From assembly GCA_016194335.1 (NCBI GenBank), contig JACQBR010000007.1:1-35797 (forward strand): 35,797 nt of DNA, written 5' to 3'. The stretch is from Microcaldota archaeon. GTDB taxonomy: Archaea; Micrarchaeota; Micrarchaeia; Norongarragalinales; UBA97. The notes beneath the pieces were generated by a model. The model ran no database searches and had not been told where the DNA came from. It was given only the letters and a program-made list of their open reading frames with translations. The position numbers and the translations under genes are program-made. Numbering within the stretch: position 1 is the stretch's first letter; every line of letters begins with the position of its first letter. Of the stretch, positions 5,642 to 18,228 are shown one piece after another.

Positions 5642-6637
5642 ATGAATCCTACTGCCCAATACTGGAAGGGAAAGAAAGTCCTCATTACCGGCCTTACGGG
5701 CTTTGTCGGCTCGTGGCTTGCCGAAAAGCTCGTGGAGCTGGACGCCGACGTGCACGGCCTGGTCCGCAGGCACGCCGCCGGCGGGTTTGACAACCTCGAG
5801 AGGGTGAAGGGCAGGGTGAAGATGACCGATGGCGACCTTTCCGACACCGGCTCGCTTCTAAGCGCAATGAAAAAGAATGACATTCAAGTCGTCTTCCACC
5901 TCGGGGCGCAGTCTTTCGTCCCCTACTCGTTCGCGGCGCCGATTGACACCTACCAGCACAACATAATGGGCACGGCCAACCTTCTCGAGGCGGTGCGCAT
6001 TTACGACAGGCTCGAGCGCATGCACTTCGCGGGCTCTTCGGAGGAATACGGCCTCGTGCGCCCGGAGGAAACTCCCATTACCGAAGACAACCCCCTGCGG
6101 CCGATGAGCCCCTACGCCCTTACCAAGGTCGCGGGCGACCTGATGTGCTGGACGCACTTCAAGGCATACAAGATTCCCGTCGTGCGCACGCGCGCCTTCA
6201 ACCACACCGGCCCGCGCAGGGGTGACACTTTCGTCACCTCCACCGTCACGCGGCAGGCGGCGGAAGTCAAGCACGGTTCGCGCAAGGAGTTCGAGCTGGG
6301 CAACCTCGACGCAAAGCGCGACTTTTCCGACGCGCGGGACATCATCGTGGGCTACATGCTCGCGGTTGAAAAGGGCGAGGTTGGCGACGTGTACAACCTC
6401 GCCAGCGGCAAGGCATACTCGATTAGGGAGCTAGTTGACATAGCTTGCAGGCACGCGGGCGTGAAGCCCGTCATCCGGCAGGACCCCGCGAGGATGCGGC
6501 CCAGCGACGTTCCGCTTCTTTTGGGCTCATTCAAGAAGGCGCACGAGAAGTTCGGCTACGAGCCTACAATCCCGTTCGAGAAGACCATTGCCGACCTCTT
6601 CGCATACCAGGAGCAGAAGATGCTTGCGGGAAAGTGA
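5642..6637 (+). CDS. NAD(P)-dependent sugar-nucleotide dehydratase, GDP-mannose 4,6-dehydratase-like
   Basis: A 331-residue extended SDR. The cofactor loop GLTGFVG is at 17-23, and the catalytic set is S132/S133, E134 and Y158-x3-K162. The block AQSFVPYSFAAPIDTYQHN and the FNHTGPRRGDTFVT segment are close to GDP-mannose 4,6-dehydratase (Gmd) and its reductase relative Rmd. The acidic residue in SSEEYG supports a dehydratase over a reductase. The expected reaction is GDP-D-mannose to GDP-4-keto-6-deoxy-D-mannose, the precursor of fucose, rhamnose, perosamine and colitose. It has its own TATA box and a good Shine-Dalgarno. A related dehydratase or epimerase on another NDP-sugar cannot be excluded. 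Confidence 0.78.
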   Translation: MNPTAQYWKGKKVLITGLTGFVGSWLAEKLVELDADVHGLVRRHAAGGFDNLERVKGRVKMTDGDLSDTGSLLSAMKKNDIQVVFHLGAQSFVPYSFAAPIDTYQHNIMGTANLLEAVRIYDRLERMHFAGSSEEYGLVRPEETPITEDNPLRPMSPYALTKVAGDLMCWTHFKAYKIPVVRTRAFNHTGPRRGDTFVTSTVTRQAAEVKHGSRKEFELGNLDAKRDFSDARDIIVGYMLAVEKGEVGDVYNLASGKAYSIRELVDIACRHAGVKPVIRQDPARMRPSDVPLLLGSFKKAHEKFGYEPTIPFEKTIADLFAYQEQKMLAGK

Positions 6638-9816: not shown

Positions 9817-9880
9817 GCGCGCTTCTGCGTTCTCCCAACCCCTTGCACGTTTCTGAGTTGGCTGTGCATTGGTTCCTGCA

Positions 9881-10432
9881 TTGACTCCGCCACAAGTAGA
9901 ACGAGTAATGCTATTCATCGATGGAAGCAACTTTTACCACGGGCTAAAGAAGAACTTTGGCACTACCCGAATCAAGTTTGTAGGTTTTTCTAAATATTTG
10001 CGTTCTGGGCGCAAACTCGTTTCGATTGAATACTACAACGCACCCTTGTCGCAGCAACTTAATCCAGTTAGTTATGCGGGACAACAGCGGTTTTTCGAAG
10101 CAATTAAACGCATACCCGAATTGAATCTCCACCTAGCAAAATTAGTCAAGCGGTTCGATATTACTAAGCAAAATCAAGTAATTGTCGAAAAAGGCCTTGA
10201 TGTAATGCTGGCGGTTCATATGTTCAAACACGCAATTAGTGACAATTACGATACTGCAATCCTAGTTAGTGGAGATGGCGATTTTGCTCCTGCAATTGAA
10301 ATCATACGGAAGGCGTATGGCAAACGTATTGAAGCAGCTTGTTTTGACACCGAACGAAGTGACCATCTGCGTCAAGTATGCGATAAAATCTGGGAATTAG
10401 AGAATCACCCGATTCGCCAATTCATGAATTGA
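9881..10432 (+). CDS. NYN domain (LabA/DUF88-like) predicted ribonuclease
   Basis: About 184 residues. The NYN (PIN-like) acid cluster is complete: the first aspartate in LFIDGSNFYHGL, a middle aspartate in EKGLDVMLAVHM, and the SGDGDFAPAIE motif. The family comprises metal-dependent RNases or RNA-binding proteins of the PIN superfamily. There is no clear start codon: TTG 9881, TTG 9869 and ATG 9908 are all in frame, and I prefer 9881 because homologues keep several residues before the IDGSN strand. Codon use is AT-richer than in both neighbours, and the gene splits a sugar cluster to which it has no obvious link, so it is probably a transferred insertion. Confidence 0.85.
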   Translation: MTPPQVERVMLFIDGSNFYHGLKKNFGTTRIKFVGFSKYLRSGRKLVSIEYYNAPLSQQLNPVSYAGQQRFFEAIKRIPELNLHLAKLVKRFDITKQNQVIVEKGLDVMLAVHMFKHAISDNYDTAILVSGDGDFAPAIEIIRKAYGKRIEAACFDTERSDHLRQVCDKIWELENHPIRQFMN

Positions 10433-10538
10433 TTATTTCTACCAAAGGATTAGATTGCTTGCCGAATAATTCTGCTAGAGGATGGAGTTATTAGCAAAGC
10501 TGATTTGGCCGAACCGGGCAGAAGGGGGTATTCTTCAC

Positions 10539-11528
10539 ATGTCGTTCTACTCTGGCAAGAAAGTCGCAGTCACCGGCGGGGACGGCTTTATCGGCTCGCG
10601 CCTCACCGAACTTCTCGTCAAGGCGGGTGCTGACGTGACCCTCATCGCCAAGAAGCCTGTTGTCAACACCGTCCACCTTCAGGATGACATCACCATCGCA
10701 TACGGCGACTTGAAGGATTTGAATTTCGCCTCCAAGGCGATGGAGGGTGCCGACACTGTTTTCCACCTCGCGGGCAAGGTGGCGGGCGTGCTTTACAACG
10801 CCACGCACCCAGCGACGATGATTACGGAGAACACCGCTCTCAACTCCGGGGCTATTGAGGCGGCAAACAAGGCCGGCGCAAGGCGCTATCTCTTCACGAG
10901 CTCGGCGTGCGGTTACGCCCTGCATTCGCCAATTCCATTGCGAGAGGAGGATTTCTTCAACGGCATGCCCGAGCCGAGCAACGGGCCTTACGGCTGGGCC
11001 AAGAGGCTCGGGGAGCTTCAGGCACAGGCGTATGCGAAGGAATTCGGGATGAAGGTCTCAATCGTCCGTCCTTTCAACTGCTACGGCCCGCGCGACAGCT
11101 TCGACCCCGAAACTTCGCACGTGATTCCAGGCCTCGTCCGCAAGGCCGTTGAGAGGCAAAACCCGTTCGTAGTGTGGGGAGACGGCAGCGCCAGCCGCGC
11201 GTTCATCTACGTTGACGACGTGGCCGCGGGCATGATGCTTGCGTGCGAAAAGGCCGCCGATGCCGACCCGATTAATTTGGGCACTTCGGAAGAAATCACG
11301 ATTAGGGAGCTGGTGGAAAAAATCCTCCGCCTCGCGGGCCACTCCGGCGCCAGCGTCGTTTTCGACTCCAGCAAGCCCGCGGGCCAGCCGAGGCGTAGCT
11401 GCTCGACTGAAAAGGCGTTGGCAAAGATGGGCTTTCGGGCGCAGACTCCTCTTGAAGAGGGAATCGCCAAGACCGTCTCGTGGTTCGAGGCCAACAGGGA
11501 GAAGTTGGGCGCCCAATCGCCTGCTTGA
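10539..11528 (+). CDS. NAD-dependent epimerase/reductase, GDP-fucose-synthase-like SDR
   Basis: A 329-residue extended SDR starting at the ATG at 10539, preceded by GGGGGT at 10524-10529; the frame is open further upstream without coding character. The cofactor loop is GGDGFIG, the catalytic serines are in FTSSACGY and the Tyr-Lys pair is YGWAK. The HLAGKVAGVLYNATHPATMITEN block and the tail TPLEEGIAKTVSWF resemble GDP-L-fucose synthase (WcaG/Fcl). That enzyme 5-epimerises and reduces GDP-4-keto-6-deoxymannose; its homologue ColC does the same in colitose synthesis. The next two genes follow closely, so it heads a sugar operon. The exact substrate is inferred from neighbours. Confidence 0.8.
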   Translation: MSFYSGKKVAVTGGDGFIGSRLTELLVKAGADVTLIAKKPVVNTVHLQDDITIAYGDLKDLNFASKAMEGADTVFHLAGKVAGVLYNATHPATMITENTALNSGAIEAANKAGARRYLFTSSACGYALHSPIPLREEDFFNGMPEPSNGPYGWAKRLGELQAQAYAKEFGMKVSIVRPFNCYGPRDSFDPETSHVIPGLVRKAVERQNPFVVWGDGSASRAFIYVDDVAAGMMLACEKAADADPINLGTSEEITIRELVEKILRLAGHSGASVVFDSSKPAGQPRRSCSTEKALAKMGFRAQTPLEEGIAKTVSWFEANREKLGAQSPA

Positions 11529-11553: not shown

Positions 11554-12804
11554 GTGAGTGCTTTAGAGAAAATGGAAGATTCCAAACCTTTCAATCCCGG
11601 CCCTTTCGAGAGCAGCTTCCGCATTGAAGTGGGCACGCTCGACCTTGGCGGGAACGAGAGGAAATACGTCAACCAGGCGCTTGATAACAACCGCCTTTCC
11701 TACGGCCCGTTCTCGCAGGGATTCGAACGGGGCCTTGCGGGCGCGCACGGCTGCAAATACGGCGTGCTTGTCAACAGCGGCACGAGCGCCCTGCGCATTG
11801 CCGTTGCCGCGCTAAGGGAAGCCTGCGGCTGGAAGGACGGCGACGAGGTCCTCGTCCCCTCGCTCACTTTCGTGGCGAGCGCCAATGTCATCATCCAGAA
11901 CAACCTAAAGCCCGTCTTCGTCGACGTGGACCCGCTCACTTACAACATCGACCCGTCCAAGATTGGGGAGAAAATAACCTCCCGCACGAGGGGAATCATG
12001 CCCGTGCATCTTTTCGGCCTTCCCTGCGACATGGACCCTATTATGAAGCTGAAGCAGGAGCACGGCCTGAGCATGATTGAGGACTCCTGCGAAACGATGT
12101 TCGCCAGATACAAGGGCAGGCCCGTGGGCTCCTTCGGCGAAATCGGCTGCTTCTCAAGCTACATCGCCCACCTCATCGTCACGGGAGTCGGGGGGATGGC
12201 GATTACGGATGACGAGAAACTCGCGGTCATGCTGCGCAGCCTCGCCAACCACGGCAGGGATTCGATTTACCTCTCCATTGACGACAGCAAGAGGCAAAGC
12301 AGCGACGAGAGGAGGATGGTGATGGAACGCCGCTTCCGCTTCGAAAGGCTGGGCTACAGCTTCCGCGTTACGGAACTGGAGGCGGCAATCGGCTGCGGCC
12401 AGCTAGAGCGGAAGGAGGAAATCATTTCCGCACGCCGCGCAAACGGGGCGTTCCTCAACGAGCACCTAAGCAGGCATTCGCGCTTCCTCCAGCTCCCATC
12501 AATTCCCGAAGGCCGCGAGCATTCATTCATGCTCTACCCGATTGTCGTGCGGAAGGGCGCGGGCTTTTCCCGCGAGGAGCTCACCCACTTCCTTGAGGAG
12601 AATGGGATTGAAACCAGGCACATGGTGCCGCTGCTCAACCAGCCGGTTTACAGGAAGCTCTTCGGCCAGGACATCGAGGAGAACTACCCCGTTGCCAAGT
12701 GGGTAAACTCGCACGGGTTTTACATCGGCTGCCACCAGAAGCTGGCCGAAGGCGATTTGCAGTACGCAGTTTCGAAGTTCGGCGAGTTTTTCGAGAAGAA
12801 GTAG
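11554..12804 (+). CDS. DegT/DnrJ/EryC1-fold PLP enzyme with His in place of the catalytic Lys
   Basis: A 416-residue fold-type I PLP enzyme of the sugar aminotransferase family. NSGTSALRIAVAAL and the PSLTFVASAN block form the cofactor site, and D177 in MIEDSCE is the pyridine-N aspartate. The internal-aldimine lysine (in relatives SFHPxK...TGEGG) is replaced here: the segment reads CFSSYIAHLIVTGVGGM, with His206 at that position (codon CAC at 12169). The same Lys-to-His change defines ColD and E1, which remove the 3-hydroxyl from 4-keto-6-deoxy sugars. A transaminase role is therefore unlikely and a 3-dehydratase role plausible. The start is GTG 11554; ATG 11572 is the alternative. Confidence 0.88.
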   Translation: MSALEKMEDSKPFNPGPFESSFRIEVGTLDLGGNERKYVNQALDNNRLSYGPFSQGFERGLAGAHGCKYGVLVNSGTSALRIAVAALREACGWKDGDEVLVPSLTFVASANVIIQNNLKPVFVDVDPLTYNIDPSKIGEKITSRTRGIMPVHLFGLPCDMDPIMKLKQEHGLSMIEDSCETMFARYKGRPVGSFGEIGCFSSYIAHLIVTGVGGMAITDDEKLAVMLRSLANHGRDSIYLSIDDSKRQSSDERRMVMERRFRFERLGYSFRVTELEAAIGCGQLERKEEIISARRANGAFLNEHLSRHSRFLQLPSIPEGREHSFMLYPIVVRKGAGFSREELTHFLEENGIETRHMVPLLNQPVYRKLFGQDIEENYPVAKWVNSHGFYIGCHQKLAEGDLQYAVSKFGEFFEKK

Positions 12805-12826
12805 GGCAATTAAGTTGGAGGGGTGT

Positions 12827-13267
12827 TTGACTCAGATGATTGACGGCGTTGTAATCGAAAGGCACAAGTGGTTTGCCAGCGAGGGGAACAAGGGCGATCT
12901 GATGCCCGAGTTTTTCAGGGGCAAGGGCTGGGACGAGTTCCAGGTCAACCTCAACACGGCCTTCCCCCGCATGGTAAAGGGCAAGCACATGCACCTGCTC
13001 AAGGAAGAGACGTTCTTCTGCGTGAAGGGCAACCTCCTGCTTCACCTCGAGGACTCGCGCGATGGCTCCAAGACCCGCGGCGAGAGGCAGACGGTGAACT
13101 TCAGCGAGTCGGAAGGCGTGTCGGTAATGATACCGCCCGGCGTGTGGCACTCGGTGGAAAACCTCGGCAACCAAACCGGATTCTTCCTCGAGCTGAGCAA
13201 CAGGTTCTTCAACCCCCAGGACGAGTTCCGCGCGCCGTTCGACCCGGCGGTTGACAAACAGAAATAG
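12827..13267 (+). CDS. sugar-nucleotide cupin (RmlC/FdtA-like)
   Basis: About 146 residues forming a single cupin barrel. Metal/active-site histidines lie in KGKHMHLLKEETFFCVKGNLLL, and the second cupin motif is IPPGVWHSVENLG. The C-terminal SNRFFNPQDEFR stretch resembles dTDP-4-keto-hexose epimerase and ketoisomerase cupins. The start is a TTG at 12827 placed five bases after GGAGG (12817-12821); ATG 12836 is possible but its spacing is long. It probably epimerises or isomerises a 4-keto-deoxy sugar made by the two upstream enzymes, 22 bases away. It converges with the GalE-like gene with 16 bases between the stops. Confidence 0.78.
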   Translation: MTQMIDGVVIERHKWFASEGNKGDLMPEFFRGKGWDEFQVNLNTAFPRMVKGKHMHLLKEETFFCVKGNLLLHLEDSRDGSKTRGERQTVNFSESEGVSVMIPPGVWHSVENLGNQTGFFLELSNRFFNPQDEFRAPFDPAVDKQK

Positions 13268-13283: not shown

Positions 13284-14225
13284 CTATATTTCCGTAATCA
13301 GCTCCTTCACCGCCTTTCTCACTGCCTGTTCGGAATTCATCTTCGGCTTCCAGCCTTGCGCGAGCATCGAGTCGATTGCGGGCTGGTATTTGGGGACGTC
13401 GCCAACCCAGCCGCGGTCGCCGCCGGTGAAGGTGTATTTGACATTGTGCAGGCCCATTTCCTCCGCGATGATGTCGGCGATTTCGGTCACGGTAATGGAA
13501 TCGGCGCTTCCGATGTTGAGCGTCTCGAACTTGCCCAGCCCTTTCTTTGGATGGAGTATTCCCGCCACGCAGTCGTCCACGTGCACGTAGTTCTTCTTCT
13601 GCTTGCCGTTCCCGAGGATTTCCAACTCCTTGGGGTTCCTGCGCATCTTGAGGATGAAGTCGCGAATCACGCCGTGCGTCCCGCGCCTTCCAATCACGTT
13701 TGCAAACCTGTAAGCAACAGCCTTCATTCCGCTCACGCCGCACACGCCGGAAAGCATTGCCTCTCCCGCGAGCTTGGTCGCGCCGTAAAGGGAGATGGGC
13801 CGCAAAGGCGAGTAGTTTTCGGGAGTGGGGATTACCGACGCCTCGCCGTAAACCGTTGCAGAGGATGCGAACACGAATTCCCCGACGGACGCGCTTCTCG
13901 CGGCGTCAATGGCGTTGAACGTGCCAGCCATGTTCACGTTGAACATCGCCTGCGGCTTTTCGGTTCCCGCGCGCACGTCGGGAGTGGCCGCGAGGTGGAA
14001 TGCCCTGCCGCAGGATTGCATCGCGGCGTCGAGGGCCTTGCGGTCGAGAATCGAGCCTTTGACGAATTTCACCCTGCCAGACTTGACGTGCCCCTGTATG
14101 AACTCGAGCCTTCCCGAGCTGAGGTCGTCAAAAACCGTGACGGAAGCGCCAGTTGCCACCAGCGCGTCGACGAGGTTGCTGCCGATGAAGCCCGCGCCGC
14201 CTGTCACGAGGACTTTTTGGGGCAT
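13284..14225 (-). CDS. NAD-dependent UDP-sugar epimerase (GalE-like SDR)
   Basis: A 313-residue extended SDR: MPQKVLVTGGAGFIGSNLV cofactor loop, DDLSSG after the second strand, FASSATVYGE catalytic serine, and YGATK for the Tyr-Lys pair. The layout fits archaeal UDP-glucose/UDP-GlcNAc 4-epimerases. The true start is the ATG at 14225: the frame is open to 14387, but that part overlaps the upstream membrane gene and shows no domain. Only one base separates it from the stop of that gene, so the two are cotranscribed. It supplies a nucleotide sugar to the cluster; the substrate is not decided by the sequence. Confidence 0.88.
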   Translation of the reverse strand: MPQKVLVTGGAGFIGSNLVDALVATGASVTVFDDLSSGRLEFIQGHVKSGRVKFVKGSILDRKALDAAMQSCGRAFHLAATPDVRAGTEKPQAMFNVNMAGTFNAIDAARSASVGEFVFASSATVYGEASVIPTPENYSPLRPISLYGATKLAGEAMLSGVCGVSGMKAVAYRFANVIGRRGTHGVIRDFILKMRRNPKELEILGNGKQKKNYVHVDDCVAGILHPKKGLGKFETLNIGSADSITVTEIADIIAEEMGLHNVKYTFTGGDRGWVGDVPKYQPAIDSMLAQGWKPKMNSEQAVRKAVKELITEI

Positions 14226-14226
14226 G

Positions 14227-14628
14227 CTATTTGAAACCTCGTTCGCGCACGATGCGTTCCTGCAGCCTCGAGCGGCTGAAGAAGCCGAGTGCCAATCCGC
14301 CGACAAGGGCGATGACGGCAAGGCCGTTGTTGATTTTCCCCTGGAAGAGGTCGTAGACCACCAGTTCGAAAAGCAGGCCGAGCACAACGAGCCAAAGGAG
14401 TCGCAGTTCGATGAGGAATTCGGAGAACAGGCCGTGTTCCTTGATTGCCTTCACGGGGTAGTTCCACATCAGGCTCACCGCCGCGAGGAGGATGATTGCC
14501 GGAAACGCGAAGGTGGTGTAGCCCCGCGTGAACGCCTGCGAGATTACCGCCAGCAATACAACGAGCGCGAGGTGAATGGCGAAATAGCCGTTTTCCTCGG
14601 ATTTGAGCCAGTCGGAAATGCCTTCCAT
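14227..14628 (-). CDS. small integral membrane protein, four predicted helices
   Basis: A 133-residue protein with hydrophobic segments at about 17-33, 38-54, 72-92 and 102-117 and a basic C-terminus (SRSRLQERIVRERGFK). I recognise no family. It is the first gene of a two-gene transcript with the GalE-like epimerase, and a role in membrane-associated glycan assembly is a guess from position only. Confidence 0.7.
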   Translation of the reverse strand: MEGISDWLKSEENGYFAIHLALVVLLAVISQAFTRGYTTFAFPAIILLAAVSLMWNYPVKAIKEHGLFSEFLIELRLLWLVVLGLLFELVVYDLFQGKINNGLAVIALVGGLALGFFSRSRLQERIVRERGFK

Positions 14629-14720
14629 CTCAGAGTCCCACCCCCCTTACGAGATTAGGCGGCAAGGCGTCTAAAAAGGTTTGCGCAAGGTGCCAAAGGC
14701 GGGCGGCTTATCGCGCGTTG

Positions 14721-14726
14721 TTATAT
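14721..14726 (+). promoter_or_regulatory. TATA box of msrB
   Basis: TTATAT lies 31-36 bases before the ATG at 14757, predicting a transcript that starts near 14750. This argues against the in-frame ATG at 14733. Confidence 0.4.
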
Positions 14727-14756
14727 TGCCTAATGCATAAACCCGTAGTGGCCAAG

Positions 14757-15158
14757 ATGAAACTCAAGACTGATGGGGAATGGCGCAAGGCGCTTGACCC
14801 CCAGGCCTATTCAGTGATGCGGCAGAAGGGGACTGAAATGCCCTTCACCGGCAGGCATTGGGACCGGCATGAGGACGGGGACTATTTCTGCATCGGTTGC
14901 GGGGCGAAGCTCTTCTCCTCAGGCACCAAATTCGGCTCAGGCACGGGCTGGCCGAGCTTTGACTCGCCCGCCAACAAGGAAAACGTGAAGCTCCTGCCAG
15001 ACAAAAGCCACGGCATGGAAAGGACTGAAGTCGTGTGCAAAAACTGCGGCGGACACCTTGGGCATCTCTTCAACGACGGCCCCACCCCAACGGGCGCGCG
15101 CTACTGCATAAACTCCTGCACCCTCGCGTTCAGGCCAAAGGGAAAGAAAAAAGATTGA
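14757..15158 (+). CDS. msrB: peptide methionine (R)-S-oxide reductase MsrB
   Basis: A 133-residue MsrB. The zinc site is C45/C48 (CIGC) and C94/C97 (CKNC), the substrate motif is GTGWPSF, and the catalytic cysteine is C117 in RYCIN, with C121 as a possible resolving residue. It reduces methionine-R-sulfoxide in oxidised proteins in the cytoplasm. The family length is normal. ATG 14757 is preferred because the body of the family starts here and the TATA box fits; ATG 14733 and TTG 14718 are in frame. It stands alone between the glycan cluster and tRNA-Leu. Confidence 0.95.
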   Translation: MKLKTDGEWRKALDPQAYSVMRQKGTEMPFTGRHWDRHEDGDYFCIGCGAKLFSSGTKFGSGTGWPSFDSPANKENVKLLPDKSHGMERTEVVCKNCGGHLGHLFNDGPTPTGARYCINSCTLAFRPKGKKKD

Positions 15159-15195
15159 GCGCAGGAAAGCTTCAAAAAATAAAACCTGGCGAAAA

Positions 15196-15333
15196 TCAGC
15201 CCAGCTGCCCCATCTTCCTCTTCAGCTCGGCAATCTCCTCGTGCAGCTTCCTGTTGCGCTTGAGCGGGTCGTTAAGCGCCTGCCTCTCCAGCTCCTCGAG
15301 CTTCCCCTTCAAGTTCGACTTCCTGTGCGCCAT
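15196..15333 (-). CDS. 45-residue basic coiled-coil protein
   Basis: A short open frame on the minus strand from ATG 15333 to TGA 15196. After a basic start (MAHRKSNLKGK) it is a charged, leucine-spaced helix (LEELERQALNDPLKRNRK, then LHEEIAELKRKMGQL), an almost perfect heptad pattern. In-frame GTG 15354 would add seven residues and has GGTGGGAG nearby. GC-rich third positions match the genome. It converges with msrB, 37 bases away. There is no family I can name; such micro-proteins often bind a larger partner. Confidence 0.5.
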   Translation of the reverse strand: MAHRKSNLKGKLEELERQALNDPLKRNRKLHEEIAELKRKMGQLG

Positions 15334-15449
15334 GTCCTGCTTGGAAACTCCCACCAAACATCACCCTTACCCGCAATTAGGATGGCGGGGTTAATTACTC
15401 CCAAACCCTCCAGCCCCCTTGCAAGGCGAATGGCTCGGCACCCCTCTTC

Positions 15450-15457
15450 TTTAAATC
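15450..15457 (+). promoter_or_regulatory. TATA box of tRNA-Leu
   Basis: TTTAAATC lies about 30 bases before the tRNA 5' end at 15485. That is the usual archaeal tRNA promoter distance and predicts a leader of a few bases. Confidence 0.55.
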
Positions 15458-15500
15458 GATTCTCAAGCTGAAACTATTACTGTTGCAGGGGTTGCCGAGA

Positions 15501-15662
15501 AACCTTTTCCTCGCTGCTCGAAAGTTCGCTTAGAAGCTCGCTTTCTGCGCTGCTCCGACGCGGCGCGAAACCGGCTATTGAAGCGGAGTTTTTGATGCTC
15601 CAGCTTCGTGCCGCGAAGCTTTACCAAAAGCTGCGATTCGAACGGCAGTGAGAGGTTCGGAA
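15501..15662 (+). other. tRNA-Leu intron 1 (D-loop, ~162 nt)
   Basis: The insertion between the D-loop halves has a bulge-helix-bulge-like junction. A 4-bp helix CCGA (15495-15498)/TCGG (15657-15660) is flanked by 3-base bulges GAA (15499-15501) and AAA (15661-15663). An inner 7-bp helix is ACCTTTT (15502-15508)/GAGAGGT (15650-15656). The outer helix is weak, so this is a relaxed motif. The body contains further stem-loops such as AGCTTCG...CGAAGCT and no homing-endonuclease frame. Confidence 0.75.
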
Positions 15663-15688
15663 ATCTGGTCAAAGGCGCGAGACTCAAG

Positions 15689-15761
15689 GTCACAACCCAT
15701 TCAAATTCAGGAAAGGGTTGCAAAATTCTACCGCGCTGGATGAAACCAAGATTGATGAGTC
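15689..15761 (+). other. tRNA-Leu intron 2 (canonical 37/38 position, 73 nt)
   Basis: A textbook bulge-helix-bulge. The outer helix is the anticodon stem and the 4-bp centre is CTCA (15683-15686)/TGAG (15756-15759). The bulges are AGG (cut after AG) and TCA (cut after TC), and the inner helix begins TCA/TGA. Splicing joins G37 to A38. Confidence 0.88.
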
Positions 15762-15933
15762 ATCTCGTCCCTTAGGGGTTCGGGGGTTCAAATCCCTCCC
15801 CCTGCATGTTCTATCTTTCTATAGTCTTGACTTTGCTATGGAAACATGTTTATTTACGGAGCGCCATATTTGCGCATGGTTACTCGTTTGGGTAGGTTTG
15901 GAGTGCACGAGTCAGGACTCACAGGTGATGTGT

Positions 15934-17190
15934 TTACCGCGAGTATTCGAGGAGGAATTCGTGCGCTGGCATCCATCGAGTCTTTGTTTGTTCGTTAGTG
16001 TTTTTTCTAGTGTCTTTCGTTACGATGATTGCTTGTTTGCAGGAGTATTTTTTGCTGAATTTTTCAAGGCCCTTATTTTGGCGTGGTTCGTTGCGGTATT
16101 TCACTTCAACTGGCGTTATTTCCTTTCCTTGTGTAAGCACGATGTCTACTTCGTTTTTGTACTTGTCCCGCCAAAAGAACCCGGCGTTGGTTGAAAGCAC
16201 GCAGCAAGTTTCAACCGCTTTTCCCAGGTATTCCTCGCCTGCGCCTTCTGCCAGCGCGGTGCTTAGGAAGGTGGGATAGAATTTCTTGAGCCGCTTTTCC
16301 GAGGTGCTTTTGTTTTTGGAGTAGTTGTAGAGCTTGGCGACGAGATGGGCTAGTTCGAGATATTCGAAGTATTTTGAGAGCGTTTGCCTTGAAATTCCCA
16401 GTTCTTGCGAAAAAGACACGAAGTCAACGATCATGCCCGGGTTGTTTACTAGGATTTCCAAGATTGATATCAGGTGGGTTGGGTTCTCAATCGGGTATAT
16501 CCTGGCCATGTCGTAAAAAACTATTTTCTCGATGATTGCCCCGCGGACGTACTGCCTGATTAGGAGCTTATCCTGTTTTCCGGCAAGTTCAGGAAAGCCA
16601 GCGGTAAGCAAGTAATTACCAAGCTCTTTTTTCAATTCATTCTCATACAGCAACGGTTTTTCTGCCATGGCAGGCTTTCCGACAAAGGTTAGGTATTCTC
16701 TGAAATTCAGTTTTTTAATCTCGAATTCGTATATCCTGCCCGCCAGGCTTTCGCGTGTTCCTTTGCGCAAGAACAATGACTCGGAACCGGAAACGAAGAT
16801 TTTGTACTTTCTGGTGTCGTAAAGGACTTTCACCTTTTCCGCCCATCCATCTAGTTTCTGTATCTCGTCAAACACCAGGAATTTCGGCTCTTTTCCGTGA
16901 ATCTCCTTGAAAGCATCGATTACGTCTAAAAGCTCGATTCCCTGCGAGTCATCGAACGAATAATACAATATTGATTCGGGCGAGTGATCTTGAATTATGT
17001 CGGAAATGATCTTGTTGAGGATAGTTGTTTTTCCTACCCGCCTCAAGCCGCATAGGGAGATTATTTGTGGTTCATCAATTAGTTTCCTTATTCTCTCATA
17101 AACTGCTCGCTCCTTGTATTCGATATTGACCCGTGCCTTCCAGAAGGGGTTGAATTCCACAACCATCCGTCTAATCTTATCGTTAATCAT
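15934..17190 (-). CDS. AAA-type ATPase with DUF4143 domain (archaeal ATP-binding protein)
   Basis: About 418 residues. The N-terminal P-loop domain has Walker A in CGLRRVGKTT and Walker B in KFLVFDEIQKL, followed by the sensor region KIFVSGSESLFL. A winged-helix stretch (ELGISRQTLSKYFEYLE) leads to a DUF4143-type end with a PD-(D/E)XK-like core, NEVDIVLTQGKEITPVEVKY. The family is common in archaea, often laterally moved, and of unknown physiological role. ATG 17190 or 17166 may be the start; the frame runs open to 17277. Codon use is AT-richer than around it, and it lies 127 bases from tRNA-Leu, consistent with acquired DNA. Confidence 0.88.
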   Translation of the reverse strand: MINDKIRRMVVEFNPFWKARVNIEYKERAVYERIRKLIDEPQIISLCGLRRVGKTTILNKIISDIIQDHSPESILYYSFDDSQGIELLDVIDAFKEIHGKEPKFLVFDEIQKLDGWAEKVKVLYDTRKYKIFVSGSESLFLRKGTRESLAGRIYEFEIKKLNFREYLTFVGKPAMAEKPLLYENELKKELGNYLLTAGFPELAGKQDKLLIRQYVRGAIIEKIVFYDMARIYPIENPTHLISILEILVNNPGMIVDFVSFSQELGISRQTLSKYFEYLELAHLVAKLYNYSKNKSTSEKRLKKFYPTFLSTALAEGAGEEYLGKAVETCCVLSTNAGFFWRDKYKNEVDIVLTQGKEITPVEVKYRNEPRQNKGLEKFSKKYSCKQAIIVTKDTRKNTNEQTKTRWMPAHEFLLEYSR

Positions 17191-17213
17191 TAACATCACA
17201 CAGTAGCTTTTAT

Positions 17214-17229
17214 GTTGGCTATAGCTAAC
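17214..17229 (-). promoter_or_regulatory. near-palindrome in the ATPase promoter
   Basis: GTTGGCTATAGCTAAC is a 16-base palindrome with one mismatch pair, 24 bases upstream of the ATPase start and overlapping possible TATA elements (CTATAG, and ATAAAA at 17208-17213 on the minus strand). It could be an operator. Confidence 0.35.
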
Positions 17230-17400
17230 ATTAAGTATGATGGAATTATTAAGGTTTTCGGCATGTTTTCCTTGCATGCGAAGTGATAGCTAAATTTTGA
17301 CAAGACTCTAGTATCATTCTGGAGTTACTCCCCCTTCATTCAACCCCAAGCCCGGAAGCTTACTTCTTCAGTTTTCAAACCCATTTGGCGAAAAGGGGGC

Positions 17401-18228
17401 TCACGCCAATCTCAACGCCAGCAGCAGCGCCTGGATGGCGGTGAAGGCATAGATGCCGATGAGCATGGCGTCGAGGCCGAAGAGGGTTCCGCGCGTGCGG
17501 CGGGAAAGCGAGAGGAGAGAGGCGGGAATGAGCGGGATGTAGGAGATGAATGAAATGAAGGGGAGCACTCGAGTGAGGCTCAATGCAATTCCCAACAAGG
17601 CTCCGGCAATCACCAGCGCGGCTGCAACGACCTTGGCTTTTTCCCTTCCGAAAAAGACGGGCGCGGTGATTTTCCCGAATCTTGCGTCCCAACCGCAGTC
17701 CTTGATGTCGTCGACGATTTTAACGCCGTTGAGGACGAGCCATACGACGAATGCGAATGCAAACATGCGCATCGGGAGCGTCCCCGCCTGCACGTAATAG
17801 CCTCCAATTGCCGCCAATGCAAGGCCAGTGGGATAGCCTGCGGTTGCGCCGACTGGGTTGAGGTCGAGGGGAGTGTGGAAATAGGCGAGGAGAAAACCGC
17901 CGAGCAAGAAGGGAAGAACGCCCCACAATCCCACGGCAATGAAATAGGCCCCGCAGGCAAGAACCGCCAAGGCCGAAACCAGCATTGCGCGCTTTGCCTG
18001 CGCCTCGCTCATGTATGAGAACTCATCCTCGCCCCTGACGAAGTAATCGACGTACGAGTCCTTCACGTGGGCGAAGTAAAGGGCGGAGAAGACCGCGATG
18101 CAGAAAACGAGGAGGTTGGGAAGGTTGGAGGCGGGGGCGTAAAGCGCTCCCACCACTGCGGCGGCAATTGCGGCCACCATGAAGACGGGATGCACTTGCG
18201 ACCAGTAAACGGTGAATGGGCTTGCCAC
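17401..18228 (-). CDS. UbiA-family prenyltransferase
   Basis: A 275-residue membrane enzyme with eight to nine predicted helices. The two Asp-rich Mg-diphosphate sites are present: H54-V-K-D57...D61 with GED downstream, and D173-D174...D177...D181 in KIVDDIKDCGWD. UbiA enzymes move a prenyl chain from its diphosphate to an aromatic or glycerol-phosphate acceptor within the membrane (quinones, archaeal ether lipids, haem A). The first motif departs from the NDxxD of digeranylgeranylglyceryl-phosphate synthase, so I do not assign that reaction. It is 88 bases downstream of the SpoIIM-like gene on the same strand. Confidence 0.88.
   Translation of the reverse strand: MASPFTVYWSQVHPVFMVAAIAAAVVGALYAPASNLPNLLVFCIAVFSALYFAHVKDSYVDYFVRGEDEFSYMSEAQAKRAMLVSALAVLACGAYFIAVGLWGVLPFLLGGFLLAYFHTPLDLNPVGATAGYPTGLALAAIGGYYVQAGTLPMRMFAFAFVVWLVLNGVKIVDDIKDCGWDARFGKITAPVFFGREKAKVVAAALVIAGALLGIALSLTRVLPFISFISYIPLIPASLLSLSRRTRGTLFGLDAMLIGIYAFTAIQALLLALRLA

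Follow-up and report, generated by a model that had tools for sequence, protein, structure and literature searches.

The colitose pathway comprises the gene trio colB, colD and colC. This set of genes is also given for the pathway in a published account (PMC8987622), according to which the NDP-sugar 3-dehydratases of the His-type have a common start, in which PMP forms a Schiff base, the histidine abstracts a proton and the C3 hydroxyl is lost. In the next steps E1 and SpnQ need a [2Fe-2S] relay; in ColD the intermediate is hydrolysed and PMP is recharged with glutamate (PMC8987622). Here, we describe a DegT-fold protein of the His-type encoded in the genome of a Microcaldota archaeon. "The window" denotes the whole stretch of DNA analysed (35,797 nucleotides), and "the window family" denotes this protein and its relatives.

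A DegT-fold protein with histidine in the lysine column

The open reading frame at 11554–12804 (+) begins with GTG (an alternative ATG lies at residue 7), and the translation of 416 aa contains GCFSSYIAHLIVTGVGGMAIT. The DegT/DnrJ/EryC1/StrS domain (PF01041) matches the protein over its full length with 320 bits against a cut-off of 19.8, and this is the only DegT protein above the family cut-off in the 85%-complete archaeal assembly. Among the nearest PDB entries found by phmmer were GDP-perosamine synthase, E1 and ColD (221, 203 and 172 bits), with overall identities of 37%, 32% and 29%, respectively. The same three enzymes were the best Foldseek matches of an AlphaFold model (mean pLDDT 92.6, pTM 0.89), which reached TM values of 0.80–0.85 to DegT-fold members. 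Based on PF01041, the model and the closest folds, the gene is annotated as a predicted His-type GDP-4-keto-6-deoxymannose 3-dehydratase.

Residues 202–214 read SYIAHLIVTGVGG and are encoded exactly by positions 12157–12195, with CAC (12169–12171) as the codon of His206. The former lysine motif around them (CFSSYIAHLIVTGVGGM, 12148–12198, +) was aligned with ColD, E1 and perosamine synthase; Tyr203 stands three residues before His206, as in E1. In the joint alignment, His206 shares its column with the catalytic lysine of GDP-perosamine synthase (FGNKIITTGEGG), with E1 His220 (YPAHHITMGEGG) and with ColD His188 (FYSHHIATMEGG), whose position is marked independently by the ColD mutants in the PDB (H188N, H188K and S187N/H188K) that alter the aligned letter. 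Hence, the reading frame, the codon and the alignment, together with the conservation described below, bear out the sequence-only reading that a DegT-fold enzyme carries His206 in place of the aminotransferase lysine, a change common to ColD and E1. Upstream, the motif EDSCETM (12079–12099, +) includes Asp177, in the column of the pyridine-nitrogen aspartate, and Glu180, which is Glu in ColD and Asp in E1.

Distribution and conservation of the family

Related genomes contained four relatives with 51–64% identity. When 84,980 species genomes were scanned, at least 80 loci at 51% identity or more were obtained, and viral contigs contributed about 30 further family loci (24 once duplicates were removed). 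By title, the 80 genomic loci listed comprise 59 bacterial and 20 archaeal ones from 30 named phyla, including many candidate phyla; cultured carriers include Limnoglobus roseus PX52 (L052). The earlier description as an archaeal protein holds for the window's own protein, but the relatives listed are mostly bacterial (59/80). Within the window's own phylum, the exact DNA motif of the His206 region was present in 10 of 295 genomes (reversed-pattern control: 0 matches), and its distribution there is patchy. Annotated phages and plasmids held no close relative (best 36.5% identity).

The best plasmid match (L156:4998–6203, Solidesulfovibrio magneticus plasmid pDMC1) is a His-type DegT protein, FSLYVAHIISTIEGG, whose Cys-rich loop looks like an iron-sulfur motif and which forms a long branch next to the window family. 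Its gene lies between those for a GDP-L-fucose synthase and an epimerase, with TPP-dependent E1 subunits nearby. Several viral contigs (L113, L115, L116, L118, L120, L121, L122, L133, L137 and L143) carry virus-borne deoxysugar clusters, in which a His-type DegT gene is found together with Gmd, Fcl or RmlC and with glycosyltransferases, one of them GT11/fucosyltransferase-like by motif.

Conservation was assessed in 107 distinct members from bacteria, archaea and viral contigs, the most distant of which has 42% identity to the window protein. Invariant in all 107 are H206, D177, E180, S201, Y203, G211, G213–214, R271, E274 and R355; position 212, usually taken by Glu in the other DegT rows (the GEGG motif), is Val or Ile throughout. 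Loci were picked by two peptide patterns, one of which covers EDSCETM, so the conservation of the residues in that pattern is partly due to selection; His206 is in neither pattern. No lysine is conserved throughout in any column of the 107 members, the best being position 88 (101/107), which is Arg in the window protein. A lysine elsewhere in the active site would have spoken against the sequence-only reading, and the alignment offers no conserved candidate for the lysine that forms the internal aldimine in DegT aminotransferases. His206 is neither a chance substitution nor a sequencing oddity.

A third His-type lineage

Two unrooted trees were calculated, a main tree of 87 sequences and a thinned one from which long branches were left out. 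In the former, the window family is set apart by one branch (support 99/95), the Lys-types as a whole by a second (99/92), and ColD and E1 together by a third (100/99). The thinned tree repeats this topology, with 100/99 for the window family. AU tests on the thinned tree rejected both the grouping of the window family with ColD alone, E1 being outside (p 0.0046), and its grouping with E1 alone (p 0.0066). Given the supported branch and the rejection of both groupings, the window family is a third His-type lineage outside the ColD and E1 clades. A separate His-type branch had been suspected from the motif, whose wording indeed differs from that of ColD (VAHxxVTGVGG vs SHHIATMEGG), and a phylogeny of His-type DegT proteins had been proposed as the check; this phylogeny sets the family apart. 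As all His-types fall on one side of a branch (99/88) in an unrooted tree, a single Lys-to-His event is possible.

Direct orthology of the window protein with ColD is ruled out by the tree, and the assignment of function by analogy is retained. Membership of E1/RfbH is ruled out by the missing cysteines, the tree and the neighbouring genes. NCBIfam holds no model for this branch; the best one, the RfbH equivalog, scores the window protein at 254 bits, with 423 required. A search of the available literature on the branch found nothing specific, and it is apparently uncharacterised.

Iron-sulfur cysteines and cofactor route

The loop region with the motif NHGRDSIYxSIDD (12238–12378, +) contains three iron-sulfur cysteines in E1 and none in the 416-aa protein, the [2Fe-2S] ligands following the cysteine numbering that we assume for E1. 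Throughout the 107 members, this region has no Cys in 96 and a single Cys in 11, as compared to a CxC...C pattern in the E1-type rows. Cys179 aligns with an E1 cluster ligand and is Ala in 17/107. The window family thus lacks the complete set of four cysteines of E1 and resembles ColD in having no iron-sulfur motif. E180, H233, R271, E274 and H394 are likewise common to the window family and ColD, not E1, whereas Tyr203 is shared with E1 but not ColD. Because the loop cysteines are missing and Cys179 is replaced by Ala in 17 members, the ColD route (PMP/PLP, without iron-sulfur) appears the likelier one for this family.

Gene neighbourhood

A GDP-L-fucose-synthase-type SDR, a candidate ColC-like 5-epimerase/4-reductase, is encoded 25 bases upstream of the DegT gene (10482–11528, +). 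It scores 213 bits with NF047922, under the 500-bit cut-off, and has E. coli GDP-fucose synthase as its best solved match; equivalents of Ser107, Cys109, Tyr136, Lys140 and His179 are all present. About 5 kb from the DegT gene lies a GDP-mannose 4,6-dehydratase/Rmd-like SDR (5642–6637, +), a candidate 4-keto sugar supplier or reductase. With 192 bits for TIGR01472 (cut-off 415) it falls below the Gmd threshold and is the best Gmd match in its own genome (85% complete); its best solved match is the GDP-6-deoxy-D-lyxo-4-hexulose reductase 2pk3, followed by GMDs. Directly 3' of the DegT gene is a cupin resembling RmlC and the C-terminal part of Cap5F (12815–13267, +; PF14667, PF00908 weak; Cap5F C-terminal domain), and then a convergent GalE-like SDR (13284–14216, −), found at the same place in a sister-genus genome (L033). 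The window's genome encodes four NTP-transferases, none above a mannose-1-phosphate guanylyltransferase cut-off.

The glycan cluster also includes an NYN-domain (PIN-like nuclease) gene (9869–10432, +) that has no evident connection with the making of sugars. A NodU/CmcH-type carbamoyltransferase gene (677–2431, −) lies at the margin of the glycosyltransferase genes, and the window's glycan may contain a carbamoylated sugar.

Across the family, a gmd-scoring gene was detected within 3 kb of the His-type DegT gene at 38 of 106 loci, and rfbG (CDP-glucose 4,6-dehydratase) at none (0/106). At over half of the loci gmd is missing within 3 kb, partly owing to contig ends. Both gmd and fcl occur within 5 kb at 16 loci, and four representatives exceed the Gmd equivalog cut-off. 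Eleven E1-type genes of related archaea served as control and showed gmd at 0/11, rfbF at 9/11 and rfbG at 6/11 (Fisher p 0.015, 4e-9 and 1.5e-7, respectively, which are only a guide as the loci are related and not independent). In the window family, rfbF is nearby at four loci. Some loci are without fcl or gmd and some have RmlC or rfbF; in view of these variable neighbours, the products may differ across the family.

In an alignment of E. coli GDP-fucose synthase with 34 Fcl-type SDRs encoded close to family members, 32 of these SDRs, including that of the window, keep Ser/Thr107-Cys109-Tyr136-Lys140-His179. In GDP-fucose synthase, we take S107, Y136 and K140 to be the reductase triad and C109 and H179 the epimerase residues. 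Taken together, gmd, the His-type DegT gene and fcl correspond to the colitose set colB, colD and colC, and by this analogy our best guess is GDP-4-keto-6-deoxymannose as substrate and a GDP-colitose-like sugar as product.

Other arrangements of DegT genes were also observed. One archaeal MAG, which belongs to the window genome's class, has a ColD-clade gene, FSTYFSHHITTGEGG, in a row with fcl and gmd (L180, G064:C11, about 13958–17700, −), and an E1-type rfbF/rfbG/rfbH set is located about 8 kb away. On each of two viral contigs (L147 and L150), genes for two His enzymes, one of the iron-sulfur E1-type and one of the ColD-type, are separated by a few kilobases. The His-type gene of three archaeal MAGs is immediately preceded by a Lys-type DegT gene with the motif FSLNxxKxITTGEGG (L043:8809–9933, L048:2846–4051 and L049:8833–9975, +), the two possibly forming a dehydratase and transaminase pair for an amino 3,6-dideoxy sugar.

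Proposed function and alternative readings

From these features we infer the substrate, chemistry and product of the window protein: it is probably a coenzyme-B6-dependent, ColD-like GDP-4-keto-6-deoxymannose 3-dehydratase feeding the synthesis of a GDP-colitose-like sugar. PMP held in the DegT fold would be joined as a Schiff base to GDP-4-keto-6-deoxy-D-mannose at its 4-keto group; His206, at the place of the transaminase lysine, would deprotonate the cofactor, and the hydroxyl at C3 would leave. Without a [2Fe-2S] cluster or reductase partner, the intermediate would be hydrolysed to GDP-4-keto-3,6-dideoxymannose and ammonia, and PMP would be regenerated by glutamate. The adjoining GDP-fucose-synthase-type SDR would next act as C5 epimerase and C4 reductase, yielding GDP-L-colitose or a closely related sugar for use in a surface glycan built by the window's gene cluster. 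The active-site motif, the lack of a conserved lysine and the Gmd/Fcl neighbours make the initial proposal of a C3-dehydratase, not an aminotransferase, a well-supported if unproved one. Points that weigh against the scheme are the overall identity, which is higher to GDP-perosamine synthase than to E1 or ColD, the Val or Ile at position 212, the many loci with no gmd inside 3 kb, the window genome's sole Gmd-like gene, which is below the cut-off and resembles a reductase, and the four loci with rfbF.

Four alternative readings were considered. The protein might be a His-type 3-dehydratase with a different substrate, such as CDP- or dTDP-4-keto-6-deoxyhexose, and a product that is not colitose-like. 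The rfbF gene (glucose-1-phosphate cytidylyltransferase) near four members, RmlC adjoining four viral ones and a window genome without Gmd above the cut-off would fit; still, we consider this unlikely, as rfbG occurs at none of the 106 loci compared to 38 for gmd, and rfbF is missing from most members and, in L037, L040 and L046, is accompanied by gmd and fcl. It appears improbable that the enzyme remained an aminotransferase despite its histidine, making GDP-perosamine or its 3-deoxy form. Although GDP-perosamine synthases are the nearest solved relatives in sequence and fold, and the His enzyme SpnQ transaminates without its reductase (PMC8987622), this activity is not seen in ColD or E1 (PMC8987622), an invariant lysine is absent from the 107 members, and the separate Lys-type DegT genes adjoining members in L043, L048 and L049 would be redundant.

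As for the fate of the intermediate, a dehydratase that, like E1 and SpnQ, uses an external electron donor via an unrecognised cluster or partner has little in its favour beyond Cys179 at the place of an E1 cluster ligand and the Cys-rich loop in the neighbouring L156 protein; with Ala at this position in 17/107 members and no loop cysteines, we give it a very slim chance. Finally, the loss of the lysine might suggest a DegT paralogue that has lost catalysis and serves in binding or regulation. This is hardly credible, since the active-site columns do not vary among the 107 sequences, even at 42% identity, which favours catalysis.

For the window family as a whole, the chances seem evenly divided that it represents a very widespread third lineage of His-type 3-dehydratases by which bacteria of candidate phyla, archaea of the DPANN group and the viruses of both make 3,6-dideoxy GDP-sugars, and that 3,6-dideoxyhexoses, wrongly annotated as amino sugars, are much commoner than O-antigen studies suggest. 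General family models (PF01041) label its members aminotransferases; if they are dehydratases, the surface sugars predicted for many bacteria and archaea without cultures would be 3,6-dideoxy sugars in place of amino sugars. The branch further provides an independent set of sequences for the determinants that, besides Lys to His, turn a transaminase into a dehydratase (Glu180, Tyr203, Val212 and the 233–246 loop).

Comparison with known systems

GDP-perosamine synthase (PDB 3dr4, 3dr7, 3bn1), with the highest phmmer score and the best fold match, belongs to a GDP-4-keto-6-deoxymannose pathway; unlike the window protein, it has the catalytic lysine (FGNK) and is without the long 236–258 loop. 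SpnQ (dTDP-4-keto-2,6-dideoxyglucose 3-dehydratase) is also a His-type 3-dehydratase (PMC8987622) and, compared by description, differs from the window family in its iron-sulfur motif and dTDP substrate. E1/RfbH (CDP-4-keto-6-deoxy-D-glucose 3-dehydrase; PDB 3bcx) shares with the window protein the histidine in the lysine column, the Tyr three residues before it and a similar length, whereas the window family is without the [2Fe-2S] cysteine motif, has Glu instead of Asp at position 180 and no rfbG neighbours, and the identity is 32%. ColD (GDP-4-keto-6-deoxy-D-mannose 3-dehydratase; E. coli WbdK; PDB 2gms, 3b8x, 2r0t, 3gr9) differs by its identity of 29%, by Phe where the window family has Tyr203, by its motif around the histidine and by the NHGRDSIYxSIDD loop of the window family. 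In common with ColD, the window family has the histidine in the lysine column, the EDxCE[ST]M motif, equivalents of H233, R271, E274, R355 and H394, no iron-sulfur cysteines, and, across its loci though with only a Gmd/Rmd-like SDR in the window, gmd- and fcl-type neighbours.
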